This document shows positions 2,745-26,464 of a DNA stretch of 60,304 nt, one piece after another. A model generated the notes under the pieces. The model did no database searches. It saw only the letters and a list, made by a program, of their open reading frames with translations, and was not told the DNA's origin. The position numbers were made by a program, and so were the translations under genes. Within the stretch, counting starts at the first letter, position 1. Every line of letters begins with the position of its first letter. The stretch comes from an uncultured Pelagibacteraceae bacterium (GTDB taxonomy: Bacteria > Pseudomonadota > Alphaproteobacteria > Pelagibacterales > Pelagibacteraceae): contig CABXYN010000005.1 of NCBI GenBank assembly GCA_902516395.1, forward strand, positions 1-60,304, read 5' to 3'.

Positions 2745-3695
2745 TTACTTTATTTCTCGAATAGGCTTACCAGCAACGCAGGATTCTAAATTCTCAATCA
2801 TTTGTGTATAGAAAATAGAATAATTTTCAGCTGTGACATAGCCTACGTGTGGAAGCAAAAGTGCGTTAGGCACAAATCTCAATTTATGACCACTGGGTAG
2901 AGGTTCTTTATCATAAACATCGATACCAGCTCCAGCAATTACATTAGTTGAAAGAGCTATAATTAAATCGTCTTCATTTACAATCGGACCTCTTGAAGTA
3001 TTAATTATAAATGCAGATTTTTTCATTTTATCAAATTCAGCAAGCTTTATACAATCCTTGTATCTTACGCCTCCCTGAACATGAATTGAAATAAAGTCAG
3101 AGTTTTGAATAAGATCCTCTTTGCTAGATGGCAAAACATCAAGTTCTTTACACTTATCTAGACTTAAATTTTCACTCCATGCCATAACTTGCATGCCGAA
3201 AGCTTTTGCTATTTTAGCAACCTGGGATCCAACTTTTCCTAAACCAATAACTCCTAAAATTTTACCTTTTAATTCTATGCCTACCGTTGTCTGCCAATAA
3301 CCTTGATACATATTATCAACCTCAACTTTAATATTCCTTGCAAGGCCTAAGATTAAAGCCCATGTTAACTCGCATGTTGGATTTGAATTAATTTGAGTTC
3401 CAGTAACAATAATTTTTGCTTTCTTTGCTGTCTCTAGATCTATTGCTTTATTTCTCATTCCACTTGTTGAAATATATTTTAGTTTTTTTAAATTTTTAAT
3501 GAGATTTGAACTTATTATAGTTCTCTCCCTCATGATAAGTAGAGCTTCAAATTCTTTTAATTTTTCAATAGCATCATCTTCATTTTCAAAGGGTTCACTA
3601 AAAATCTCAATATCAAACTTTGATGAAAGATTTTTCAAATCTATAAATTCTTGAGCAACGTTTTGATAATCGTCTAAAATGGCTACCTTAAGCAT
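2745..3695 (-). CDS. D-2-hydroxyacid dehydrogenase (NAD-binding)
   Basis: The protein has the two-part Rossmann architecture of the D-isomer-specific 2-hydroxyacid dehydrogenases. It has an N-terminal substrate domain, the NAD-binding loop GVIGLGKVGSQVAK, the NTSRGPIVNEDDL helix with the active-site Arg nearby, and a C-terminal LLPHVGY segment with the catalytic His. I chose the Met of MLKVAILDDYQ as start. It gives a normal N-terminus and an 8-bp overlap with the transporter gene; an upstream ATG at 3731 would add 12 residues unlike the family. Annotated relatives are often called phosphoglycerate dehydrogenase-like, but the short form lacks the ACT domain of SerA. It would interconvert a 2-oxo acid and a D-2-hydroxy acid; the neighbours suggest a 2-oxo acid from amino-acid breakdown. 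Confidence 0.85.
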   Translation of the reverse strand: MLKVAILDDYQNVAQEFIDLKNLSSKFDIEIFSEPFENEDDAIEKLKEFEALLIMRERTIISSNLIKNLKKLKYISTSGMRNKAIDLETAKKAKIIVTGTQINSNPTCELTWALILGLARNIKVEVDNMYQGYWQTTVGIELKGKILGVIGLGKVGSQVAKIAKAFGMQVMAWSENLSLDKCKELDVLPSSKEDLIQNSDFISIHVQGGVRYKDCIKLAEFDKMKKSAFIINTSRGPIVNEDDLIIALSTNVIAGAGIDVYDKEPLPSGHKLRFVPNALLLPHVGYVTAENYSIFYTQMIENLESCVAGKPIREIK

Positions 3696-4593
3696 TTTGA
3701 GTTTTTTTGTTCGAGATTGTAATACCAGCAATTATAAAAATTGCACCTAAGAAATGGTAAAATAAAATTTTTTCATTGAAAATTATCATAGCCATTATTG
3801 CACCTAGAATTGGCATCAAATGGAGAAAAACTCCAGATCTATTAGCCCCAATAAGTTTTACACCTTTTATCCAAAACAGAAATGAGATTAGACCAGGAAA
3901 AAAAACAACATAGAATAAAACTAAATAAAAAGAGGATTGTAATTTGATTACACTGCCCAAACTATAATCAATAAAATACATTGGAATTAGAAAAATTACT
4001 CCAAAAGTTATAACGATCTGTAATAGAGAAATTGGAGATAGATTGAATTCCTTTTTTTTCAAAAGAGCTGAATAAAGAGACCATGCAAACATTGCAATTA
4101 ATGCAAAAATATCTCCTTTGTTAAAAGACAAATTTAATAAATTATTTAAATTTGCTTTTGTTATTATAAACAAAACACCTGTAAGTGAGAGAAATACTCC
4201 TATTATTTGAAATGAATTTGTTTTCTCAATTCTAAGTAAAGATGAAAATAATATAATCATAACTGGTACTGTTGAAATCATAAGTACTCCAGTAATAACT
4301 TGGGTATGTCTGAGTGAGTAAAAAAGAGCTGAATTAAAAACTGTCACAGCTAAAATTCCCAACAATGAAAATAAAAAAATATTTTCTATTATAATATTTT
4401 TGTTATTTAATAATTCTTTATAAGTGAACGGAAGTAAAACTAACCAAGCCAAAAACCATCTATAAAAATTTAAGGATATCGGAGGAATATCAATAATGCT
4501 TGCAGCTTTTCCTACTATAAAGTTGCCTGCCCAAAATAAACAAGCTAAAACCAAATAAAGAGATGCTAAATATAAAGGGCTAAGTGTTTTCAT
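3688..4593 (-). CDS. EamA / drug-metabolite transporter superfamily permease
   Basis: This is a 301-residue integral membrane protein with ten hydrophobic segments in two homologous halves, typical of EamA-domain (RhaT/YdcZ-like) transporters. Motifs visible are LFWAGNFIVGK in the first helix and the HLMPILGAIMAM stretch in the second half. Such proteins usually export or import small metabolites such as amino acids; the substrate is not readable. It overlaps the upstream indolepyruvate oxidoreductase gene by 14 bp and the downstream hydroxyacid dehydrogenase by 8 bp, so it belongs to the same catabolic unit. A role in moving an amino acid or 2-oxo acid is a reasonable inference. Confidence 0.85.
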   Translation of the reverse strand: MKTLSPLYLASLYLVLACLFWAGNFIVGKAASIIDIPPISLNFYRWFLAWLVLLPFTYKELLNNKNIIIENIFLFSLLGILAVTVFNSALFYSLRHTQVITGVLMISTVPVMIILFSSLLRIEKTNSFQIIGVFLSLTGVLFIITKANLNNLLNLSFNKGDIFALIAMFAWSLYSALLKKKEFNLSPISLLQIVITFGVIFLIPMYFIDYSLGSVIKLQSSFYLVLFYVVFFPGLISFLFWIKGVKLIGANRSGVFLHLMPILGAIMAMIIFNEKILFYHFLGAIFIIAGITISNKKTQNA

Positions 4594-7500
4594 GAAAAGA
4601 ATTTAGTAAATCTGATCTATAGTTTATAGCTTCTTTTATATTCTTTTCCTTAACATGTCCAAAACCTCTGATTTGATCAGGCACTGATGCTATTTTAACT
4701 GCTGTTTCATAGTTAGATTTATTTATTTTTATTCCTATGTCAGTAATTGTTTCCTTATAATCTCTTATCAATTCTCTCTCTTTTTTTCTTTCATTTAAAT
4801 AACCAAATGGATCAAGCTTTGTACCTCTTAAAAATTTAAATTTAGAGAGTAATTTAAACACATTAAATAACCATCCTCCAAATTTAACTTTTAGCAATTT
4901 CCCATCAACTTTGCTTTTTTTACTAAAAATTGGAGGAGCTAAATAAAAGTTATAATTAAAGTTACCTTCAAAGTTTTTATTTACATCATCTACGAATTTT
5001 TTATTTGTCATTAATCGCGATACTTCATACTCATCTTTGTATGCCATTAATTTGAAGTAATTTTTCAAGACTGCAGTTGAGAATTGACTTCCATTTCCTA
5101 TATTTTTATCTATCTTTCTTGCATAGCTTACAAGATCTCCAAATTTTTCAGCATATTTTATATTTTGATAATCTTCCAAGAACTTAAATCTATTCTTATA
5201 TTTTTCATCAAAACCCACTAGTACTTCTGGTTCATCTTTAATTATATCTACTACTTCCTCTTTTAGATTTTCATAGTGTCTTCCAAATCTGAATGCATCA
5301 ATATTATCTTTTACACTTGCACCATTTAACTTAATTGCTTTTTCAATTGATGAAGCTGAAATTGGTATTAAGCCTGATTGATATGCTACTCCAACATTAA
5401 ACATATTTGATAAAATTGAATTTCCTAAAATCTTTGATGTAATTTTATTTGATGATATAAACTTTATATTTTCTTGACCTGCTATATTAATTAAATTATC
5501 TCTCATTTCATCAAATGGTAAGTAAAAATTTTTGTCCCTTGTAAAATCTCCAGGCATAACTTCATCTGTATTAATTATTAATTTTGAAATTTTTTTATCT
5601 AAGGTTTTTATTATTTCTAAATCATTTGATACAAGTAAATCAAATCCTAGAAGTAAGTTAGTATCGCCATAAGATAACCTTATTGCTCCAACATCTTCTG
5701 GTTTTTCAAAAATTCTTAAGAAACTTTTAACAGCTCCACCTTTTTGTGCTAATCCAGTCATATCTAAAACCCCTGACCCTTTTCCATCTATTTGGGAAGC
5801 GGTTGCAAGCACAGCTCCAATTGTAACAACGCCTGTGCCACCAATTCCAGCAATCATTATTCCAAAAGATTTATTAATTTGAGGTAATATTGGATCATCT
5901 ATCTTTGAATTTATTTTATTAATTAAATTATCGTCATAATTTTTCTTAAGTCTTATATCTCCCTCAAGACTTACAAAACTTGGACAAAACCCATCTACAC
6001 ATGTGTAATCTTTGTTACAAGAAGATTGGTCAATTTGTCTTTTTCTACCATATTCAGTTTCAACAGGTGCAATAGAAACACAATTAGATTGAATTCCACA
6101 ATCTCCACAACCTTCACATAAGTCTTTATTAATAAAAATTTTTTTCTTAGGCTCTTCCAAGATACCTTTTTTTCTTCTCCTTCTTTTCTCAGCTGCACAG
6201 GTTTGATCATAAATTATTACAGTTGTTCCATTAATTTTGCTCAATTCAATTTGAACATCTATAATATTTTTTCTATCATAAACTTTGGAATTTCTCGCAA
6301 AACCTCCTAAGTCGCTATATTTTTCAATTTCATCAGTGATTATTGCAATTTCTTCGACACCTTCTGCTTCAAGTTGTTTAGACATTTGAGCAACTGTTGG
6401 TAATCCATCTAATGCTTGGCCTCCTGTCAAAGCAACTGCATCATTATACAAAATCTTAAATGTCATTTTAGTTTTTGCTGCAACTGCATGTCTTATGGAT
6501 AGAATTCCTGAATGAATGTAAGTCCCATCTCCCATATTTTGAAAAACATGTTCTGTATTACTAAATACGGACTCACCAACCCAAGTTGCACCTTCTGATC
6601 CCATCTGTGAAAAGCCTTCATTATCTCTCTCCATATGTTCTACAAGATAAGCACAACTAATACCTGTAATTGCTCTACTACCTTCAGGTATTCTAGTTGA
6701 AGTATTATGAGGGCACCCAGAACAGAAATGTGGGACTCTTTTTAAAGAAATATTTGAATTAGTTTTTTCTTTTAAAGACTCTAATTTTTTTGAAAGATTA
6801 TTTACTTCATCTGGTAGTTTAAGGTAATTAATTATTTCAAAGATCTTTAAACCTATTTCTCCTGGGTCTAAAGCTCCAGATGAAACAAATAAATCATTAT
6901 TATTTTCATCATTTTTTCCAACAACTTTTACATTTAAATTTTTATTAAATAATATTTCTTTGACTTGTGTTTCAATGATTGATCTTTTTTCTTCAACAAC
7001 AATAATTTTTTCTAAATTTTCAGAAAATTTTTCAATTATTGTTTCCTCTAATGGCCAAGGTATAGCAATTTTAAGAAATTTAATTCCTACTTGATTAGCA
7101 ATATCTTTATTTATTCCTATTTTTTCTAGCCCTAATTTTGTATCTAAAAAAGACTTTCCAGTGCTAATTATTCCAACTTTTGGTTTTTTTGAGTCGAAAA
7201 TAATTTTATTCAAATTATTTATTTTACAAAATTCTTTTACATATTTTATTTTATGGTGGTGTAGCCGATATTCTTTTTCTTGTGCAGTGTCTTTAAGTCT
7301 TATATTTAAACCTTCAGTTGGATAGCTATCACTTAAAACATCAGTAAGTTTTAATCTGTTTTCATCTAAGTCAACTGTCGCTCCAGAACTCACATTATCA
7401 TGAACACACTTTATTCCAACCCAACAACCACTTTTTCTTGATAATTCGATTCCTATTATTCCATAATCTAAAATTTCTTGAACACCACTCGGATTAAAAA

Positions 7501-26156: not shown

Positions 26157-26166
26157 GAATAAATTA

Positions 26167-26194
26167 TTGAATCTCTCGTATTTGGTTTTATATT
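26167..26194 (+). promoter_or_regulatory. Candidate ssrA (tmRNA) promoter
   Basis: TTGAAT (26167-26172), a 16-bp spacer and TATATT (26189-26194) form a good sigma-70-type promoter. The predicted start, about 7 bp after the -10, falls at 26201, exactly the first base of the 5' hairpin of the acceptor RNA. Confidence 0.6.
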
Positions 26195-26280
26195 AATAGT
26201 GTTGGTTTTCCAACTATGACGATAAACGAATTTCGTAATAACCATTACGGACGTGGGGGCAGTACCCACCACCTCCACCA

Positions 26281-26292
26281 TTTACAACTTAA
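26281..26292 (+). other. tmRNA intervening segment (12 nt)
   Basis: TTTACAACTTAA separates the encoded CCA of the acceptor piece from the first G of the coding piece. In the precursor it forms the loop closing the acceptor stem. It must be removed by tRNA-type processing (RNase P on the coding side) to give two RNA chains. Confidence 0.75.
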
Positions 26293-26374
26293 GGGGGTGA
26301 ATTAGGATCGACGGGTGTCTAAAAGTTGTTCTTTCGTTCGGTATTGTTCCGCCGTGATGGGCTAATTTACAAAT

Positions 26375-26404
26375 GCTAACGAAAGTTACGCACTTGCAGC
26401 TTAA
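26375..26404 (+). CDS. tmRNA proteolysis tag reading frame
   Basis: Starting at a GCT resume codon the frame reads ANESYALAA and stops at TAA (26402-26404). The C-terminal YALAA matches tags recognised by ClpXP and other proteases. The upstream AAAT and the position relative to the 5' signature agree with a resume site. The exact resume codon is inferred by comparison with the E. coli tag ANDENYALAA. A 9-bp perfect hairpin (26401-26420) overlaps the stop codon. Confidence 0.8.
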   Translation, partial: ANESYALAA

Positions 26405-26432
26405 TTAGTTTACTAATTAAGTTACGGGGTTT

Positions 26433-26464
26433 GGGGCACCTGGCAACAGAACGCCCCTTTTTTT
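26433..26464 (+). terminator. Intrinsic terminator of ssrA
   Basis: GGGGC (26433-26437) and GCCCC (26453-26457) form a GC-rich stem followed by seven T residues (26458-26464). The stem may also be the last helix of the tmRNA coding piece. Confidence 0.75.

Follow-up and report, generated by a model that had tools for sequence, protein, structure and literature searches.

A permuted two-piece tmRNA gene with a 12-nucleotide insert in a Pelagibacteraceae genome, set within a series of insert lengths

The closest described relatives of the gene reported here are the permuted transfer-messenger RNAs (tmRNAs) of the Alphaproteobacteria (Rfam models RF01849 and RF04321), which include that of 'Candidatus Pelagibacter ubique'. 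The available portions of earlier reports document tmRNA in two pieces by Northern blot in Sinorhizobium (PMC2245857), Prochlorococcus (PMC1242208) and Orientia (PMC7335160), while the processing of permuted tmRNA is ascribed to tRNA enzymes in the accessible text of two others (PMC11915505, PMC3985003); Northern evidence for a two-piece tmRNA in SAR11 was not found in the literature searched. Our study concerns a gene for tmRNA, which releases stalled ribosomes, on the forward strand of a 60,304-nucleotide (nt) stretch of DNA (hereafter the window; contig CABXYN010000005.1) from an uncultured Pelagibacteraceae bacterium. This locus shares gene order, acceptor stem, G3-U70 pair, encoded CCA and tag with the relatives named above and is an unexceptional alphaproteobacterial tmRNA gene (ssrA) of the permuted, two-piece kind. 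It is very probable that the linker between its two pieces is cut out of a single transcript by ribonuclease P (RNase P) and 3' nucleases, leaving a two-piece tmRNA. The interest lies in the wider length series and in the predicted loop-borne CCA of the shortest genes: among the permuted tmRNA genes surveyed here the inserts run from 1 to 61 nt, and this natural series offers a way to ask if a free RNA end is a requirement for RNase P and the 3' nucleases.

The 3' side of the acceptor stem, CACCTCC, lies at positions 26270-26276 at the end of a segment that also holds the T arm (26251-26276, from sequence and Rfam), and is followed by the discriminator A at 26277 and an encoded CCA at 26278-26280. 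An insert of 12 nt, TTTACAACTTAA (26281-26292), separates this end from the coding piece, which opens with the acceptor 5' strand GGGGGTG (26293-26299). The two strands form seven of seven pairs, the third of which is G26295-U26274, the G3-U70 pair that marks alanine identity. The Rfam alpha_tmRNA model (RF01849) matches 26163-26460 with 228.7 bits (threshold 50, E 4.9e-65) and the tmRNA_permuted model (RF04321) matches 26218-26404 with 127.6 bits (threshold 47, E 1.3e-24); with E-values of this order the assignment is not due to chance. Both models place the acceptor stem exactly at 26270-26276 and 26293-26299, and ARAGORN reports a permuted tmRNA with the tag ANESYALAA, which has an ALAA-type hydrophobic end, its frame and stop occupying 26375-26404. 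The original prediction, made from the sequence alone, had described a permuted gene with the acceptor piece and its CCA first, the GGGGGTG/CACCTCC pairing with a G-U third pair, and only 12 nt between the pieces; its coordinates proved exact, and the covariance search that it had proposed as a check put the acceptor stem where it had been drawn. The gene is the sole RF01849 match in its genome (1,069,573 bases, 77% complete), which also contains an SmpB gene (PF01668, 187.1 bits; genome G000) and a gene for class A RNase P RNA. What is observed directly is the gene order, the stem, the CCA, the tag and these two further genes, together with the conservation across the family set out below.

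These features suggest a model for the maturation of the RNA. In its predicted fold, the single transcript has its two acceptor strands on either side of the linker at 26281-26292; RNase P would likely sever the linker from the coding piece immediately before G26293, and 3' nucleases would likely shorten the acceptor piece to its encoded CCA (26280), yielding a two-piece tmRNA. The pieces would stay joined through the 7-base-pair acceptor stem and the P2 pairing, and the two-piece tmRNA would be charged with alanine through G3-U70 and would tag proteins on stalled ribosomes with ANESYALAA. The two cuts, the order in which they occur and the loss of the linker are predictions from sequence.

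Evidence on the 5' cut comes from a class-wide sample of 144 alphaproteobacterial genomes (one or two per family, at least 90% complete except the window's own), in 138 of which RF04321 scored over its cut-off. Inserts could be measured by pattern in 117 genomes, 55 of them with 30 nt or fewer and 62 with 31-61 nt, where 61 nt is the limit of the insert search and hence the largest measurable value. Just ahead of the coding piece, AU stands at -2/-1 in 55 of the 117, and U(-1) is present in 86. Among the 55 fully typed inserts, AU occupies -2/-1 in 49% compared with 9% elsewhere (27 observed against 7.9 expected), and none of 20,000 draws of random positions reached so high a value. This signature, read from sequence, agrees with RNase P making the 5' cut: the accessible part of PMC9433436 gives A(-2)U(-1) as the optimum for RNase P, groups AA and AC with it, and places GG, GU, CG and UG as the slowest pairs. 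The same text reports that a two-base leader lowers RNase P kcat/Km 5.2-fold, so that leader length alone does not exclude a 2-nt insert.

A pattern scan of the order found the permuted junction, its insert at most 30 nt long, in 349 of 397 genomes. For 9 of the 48 genomes without a junction, 8 of the 9 being more than 90% complete, no RF04321 match was obtained from the 99 of 117-168 candidates per genome that were scored; because none of the nine gave a match, missing sequence is a likelier explanation than long inserts. The family sample consists of 154 typed inserts, namely 89 window-genus rows among the matches listed (window included) and 65 from other genera, the latter chosen for already showing the junction pattern, with eight same-family genomes lacking it left out. 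Among the matches listed, the insert is 12 nt long in 125 of the 154, 11 nt in 21, and 9, 10, 13 or 17 nt in the remaining eight. In the second SAR11 family of the order, the 30 fetched loci have inserts of 5-9 nt (7 nt in 22 of the 30, among the matches listed), and one further genome of that family, G004, has a 4-nt insert (L290) confirmed by Rfam; a 4-nt insert is also found in a Pelagibacteraceae record (L057), again in an Rfam-confirmed tmRNA. Twelve nucleotides is the usual insert length in the window's SAR11 family and does not denote a new kind of precursor.

The original prediction had called the insert very short and had suggested surveying its length across SAR11. Against the class as a whole the description stands, as the window falls in the lower fifth (25 of 117 genomes have 12 nt or fewer); within its own family it does not, since 12 nt is the commonest length (125 of 154), the survey showing it to be the family norm beside 4-9 nt in the sister family. 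The idea that 12 nt is an outlier was rejected, given that it is the commonest length in the family and that shorter inserts occur in many lineages. Much the same applies to the G3-U70 pair, which had been singled out: it is present in the window, and it is not distinctive, occurring in all 29 scored genes, window included, of 31 tried by script (the window and L291-L320). All 29 also form the full seven acceptor pairs; the script took only stems of at least six pairs beside ACCA, so that the pairing count is not independent, and it did not require G-U at the third pair. The strand pairs seen were GGGGGTG/CACCTCC, GGGGGCG/CGCCTCC and GGGGATG/CATCTCC. Two genes went unscored, L320, whose anchor word differs, and L294, which has CACCC for CACCA; both are tmRNA by Rfam. 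In L294 (positions 1501-1711), an alphaproteobacterial permuted tmRNA, this replacement means that the CCA is not encoded. G3-U70 is an ordinary feature of the window gene, and the earlier interpretation is partly supported, being right in kind and overstated in rarity.

Much shorter inserts exist elsewhere. A search of species genomes for 0-6 nt inserts returned at least 118 stretches, the matches listed comprising 9 of 2 nt, 15 of 3 nt, 39 of 4 nt, 34 of 5 nt and 21 of 6 nt, with no 1-nt insert among them. No 0-nt insert was found either among these listed matches or in a scan of viral contigs for inserts of 0-3 nt, which returned eight contigs. When 18 of the short-insert stretches were put to Rfam, 16 were permuted tmRNA. 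Seven of the nine 2-nt inserts among the matches listed were confirmed in this way, with Acidicaldus organivorans (L037) and a Candidatus Odyssella metagenome-assembled genome (L079) as named cases; Rfam does not identify L043 and L114 as tmRNA, and they were taken as chance matches. All eight viral contigs carry permuted tmRNA by Rfam, with an insert of 1 nt in L358, 2 nt in L361 and 3 nt in the other six. In L358 (positions 4751-4780 of a 7.3-kilobase viral contig) a single base stands between the CCA and the coding piece; this 1-nt case comes from one contig and could reflect an assembly error. No annotated phage record matched the window gene or the L358 gene in similarity searches. Separately, a contig titled Thermosynechococcus sp. 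(L048, positions 3683-7314) holds an array with 14 tRNA matches and a permuted tmRNA; it appears phage-like and its binning may be wrong.

In the predicted folds, the loop that holds the CCA measures 6 nt in the 2-nt precursor L037 and 16 nt in the window; with A73 paired to U(-1), the CCA lies in an apical loop of 4 nt in L079 (2-nt insert) and of 3 nt in L358 (1-nt insert). These short folds stand little apart from those of shuffled sequences (10 to 51 of 200 shuffles as good), and they show geometry, not proof of structure. In precursors with inserts of 1-2 nt, whose CCA is predicted to lie within a loop of just 3-6 nt, the first cut should therefore fall on a loop that is still closed. The original prediction had likened the window precursor to an acceptor stem closed by a loop and had expected a constrained processing geometry; the predicted fold agrees with the likeness, and the expected constraint is sound, and is sharper in the 1-2 nt relatives than in the window. 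In the literature searched we found no statement of a minimum insert length for permuted tmRNA and no description of the length series or of the loop-borne CCA; the founding papers may mention short inserts. For permuted archaeal tRNA, the removal of a 1-nt intervening sequence is called an open question in the accessible part of PMC3978253.

The insert of the window family is conserved in part. Its core, CAACT (26285-26289), occurs in 145 of the 154 typed family inserts among the matches listed, with insert positions -4 to -8 being 95-98% identical. The genus-weighted consensus frequency of the core is 0.99 over 29 sequences from 8 genera, compared with 0.63 upstream of -35, 0.61 in the promoter spacer and 0.54 past the 3' end; in this set the only sequence of the window genus is the window's own, and the unusual inserts from that genus, which had been fetched deliberately, were left out. 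With those inserts included, whole-insert identity is 0.69 across genera and 0.60 inside the genus. A conserved motif within a stretch predicted to be discarded poses a second, small and testable puzzle, and several pairing partners were considered for it. A precursor pseudoknot between ACAACUU of the insert and AAGUUGU at 26323-26329 is a perfect match in the window and was rejected as it is not kept in relatives: among 20 relatives examined, L284 is the sole one of the 14 bearing CAACT to preserve AGUUG in the next 75 nt, and L057 retains the downstream sequence though it lacks CAACT. Pairing with the tmRNA 3' region was rejected after a comparison of flanks by eye, in which that region differs in several genera. 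The 5' hairpin GUUGG..CCAAC that starts the acceptor piece (26201-26216, from the RF01849 alignment) is present in 52 of 52 family loci checked, with an inter-genus identity of 0.92 for 26199-26216. The best remaining candidate, a four-base CAAC/GUUG match with it, occurs in 45 of the 52, and the sister family lacks both elements in 31 of 31 loci; the hairpin is kept in 7 of the 52 loci that have no CAAC, and pairing would need it to be opened, which makes this partner unlikely. AGUUG occurs at one shared position in the RNase P RNA of two of four genomes. An internal promoter, TTTACA-16-TAGGAT, was rejected as a weak consensus match (9 of 12) with a varying first hexamer. No convincing partner for CAACT was found among the downstream region, the 3' region, the 5' hairpin and the RNase P RNA.

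A role as a selected processing element, as opposed to filler, is suggested for the 12-nt insert by the near-invariance of the core beside its comparison regions, its presence in 145 of 154 inserts, and the match with the 5' hairpin in 45 of 52 family loci where the sister family has neither element in 31. The nine family inserts without CAACT speak against such a role, as do the 4-nt insert of L057 and the sister family, which lack CAACT (L057 being tmRNA by Rfam all the same), the hairpin that stays in 7 of 52 loci without CAAC, the AAGUUGU pairing kept in 1 of 14 relatives and the RNase P RNA site found in 2 of 4 genomes; on balance we put a selected element at a little under an even chance. 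A bolder proposal holds both that permuted precursors are closed-loop RNase P substrates, in which for inserts of 1-2 nt the CCA forms the apical loop and the first cut is made without a free 3' end, and that the Pelagibacteraceae linker is a dedicated processing signal with CAACT as its core; we regard this combination as rather unlikely. The conserved core would also suit a single cut right after the CCA, by which the coding piece would retain the linker as a 5' leader, and the cut that frees the CCA 3' end is the only one that charging strictly requires. Yet the A(-2)U(-1) pair that 55 of 117 class genomes have just ahead of the acceptor strand points to RNase P cutting at G1, and a linker that varies from 2 to 61 nt in the class and is 1 nt long in a viral contig fits a discarded stretch, which leaves the single cut highly improbable. 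Excision of the linker by RNase P and 3' nucleases has observations against it too. Simple removal does not account for the conservation of CAACT; the window gene carries A(-2)A(-1) in place of AU, and one of the slow pairs GG, GU, CG or UG occurs in 17 of 117 class genomes, 12 of them with GU. The fold of the window's acceptor-stem fragment is matched by 23 of 200 shuffles, and the precursor's minimum-free-energy fold retains the acceptor stem and pairs other parts unlike the Rfam model. In four family genomes searched with one model per enzyme, by which divergent enzymes may be missed, no clear candidate for the 3' nuclease emerged: RNase PH was over its cut-off in one, with weak matches in the others, RNase Z in none, with weak matches in three, and RNase D in none, with partial matches in three.

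The length of the insert, as distinct from its content, could be a product of genome streamlining, as in SAR11. Across the class the median is 32 nt, with 25 of 117 genomes at 12 nt or fewer and a minimum of 2 nt; the median may be an underestimate, because at least 21 genomes over the RF04321 cut-off, with longer inserts or other words, were not measured. Three of the 144 genomes (G439, G443 and G469) gave no RF04321 match under strict filters, of which G439 is a single contig and 93% complete. Larger genomes tend to have longer inserts (Spearman 0.38, n=117, kinship uncorrected), with medians of 11.5 nt below 2 Mb (26 genomes), 34 nt at 2-3.5 Mb (40 genomes) and 36 nt above that (51 genomes). 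This trend across the 117 genomes is what streamlining would predict; set against it, 4 of the 51 genomes of at least 3.5 Mb have inserts of 12 nt or fewer, and the 0-6 nt scan also matched records named Acidicaldus, Belnapia and Accumulibacter, of which Rfam was applied to the Acidicaldus locus (L037) alone. We therefore view streamlining as a plausible source of the short insert, at somewhat worse than even odds; it would be one cause and not a speciality of SAR11. Insert length varies by lineage and tends to be shorter in small genomes.

The remaining features of the locus, all on the forward strand, complete its description. A putative promoter for the precursor, TTGAAT-16-TATATT, lies at 26167-26194 (two sites in the consensus scan, against a mean of 0.9 in shuffles), and resembling hexamers are visible upstream in relatives. 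The 5' part of the acceptor piece (26218-26250) is predicted from the Rfam alignments to pair with the coding piece. Ahead of the tag, the coding piece runs through 26300-26374 in the Rfam alignment, a segment that we take to hold the D-loop region, the P2 3' strand and the pseudoknot region. Its conserved 3' end, at 26429-26458 by Rfam, fold and identity profile, is a GGGGC..GCCCC hairpin followed by a T run, which the terminator scan did not report. From 26459, just past the tmRNA 3' end, sequences diverge immediately (identity 0.30 between genera and 0.36 within the sampled genus), as if this were a point of insertion or exchange. A ThyX family gene (PF02511, 25209-26156) adjoins the tmRNA on the opposite strand, and the other neighbours are a tRNA-Leu and then a NadA gene (PF02445).

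The neighbourhood has a described counterpart, as Table 1 of PMC2704228, in the part available, lists the P. ubique tmRNA beside thyX. The same source, citing tmRDB, gives 75-125 bp for the region between the two sections, in contrast to 12 nt in the window and a class median of 32. The public set of permuted tmRNAs stands at 11,946 sequences (PMC11915505). The permuted order is shared with the betaproteobacterial tmRNAs (RF01850), and 3-nt inserts occur in two loci that score on the beta model (L036 and L110); the window scores on the alpha model, and the clade models differ in the surrounding structure according to the accessible text of PMC11915505. In the circularly permuted pre-tRNAs of algae and Thermofilum pendens, the acceptor ends are likewise joined by an intervening sequence, there of 1-74 nt, the removal of which is ascribed to RNase P and tRNase Z in the portion of PMC3978253 available. 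The comparison does not extend to a bulge-helix-bulge junction with re-ligation, which would not be expected of a tmRNA. Those pre-tRNAs are joined again at a second junction to give a single tRNA, whereas the tmRNA stays in two pieces.
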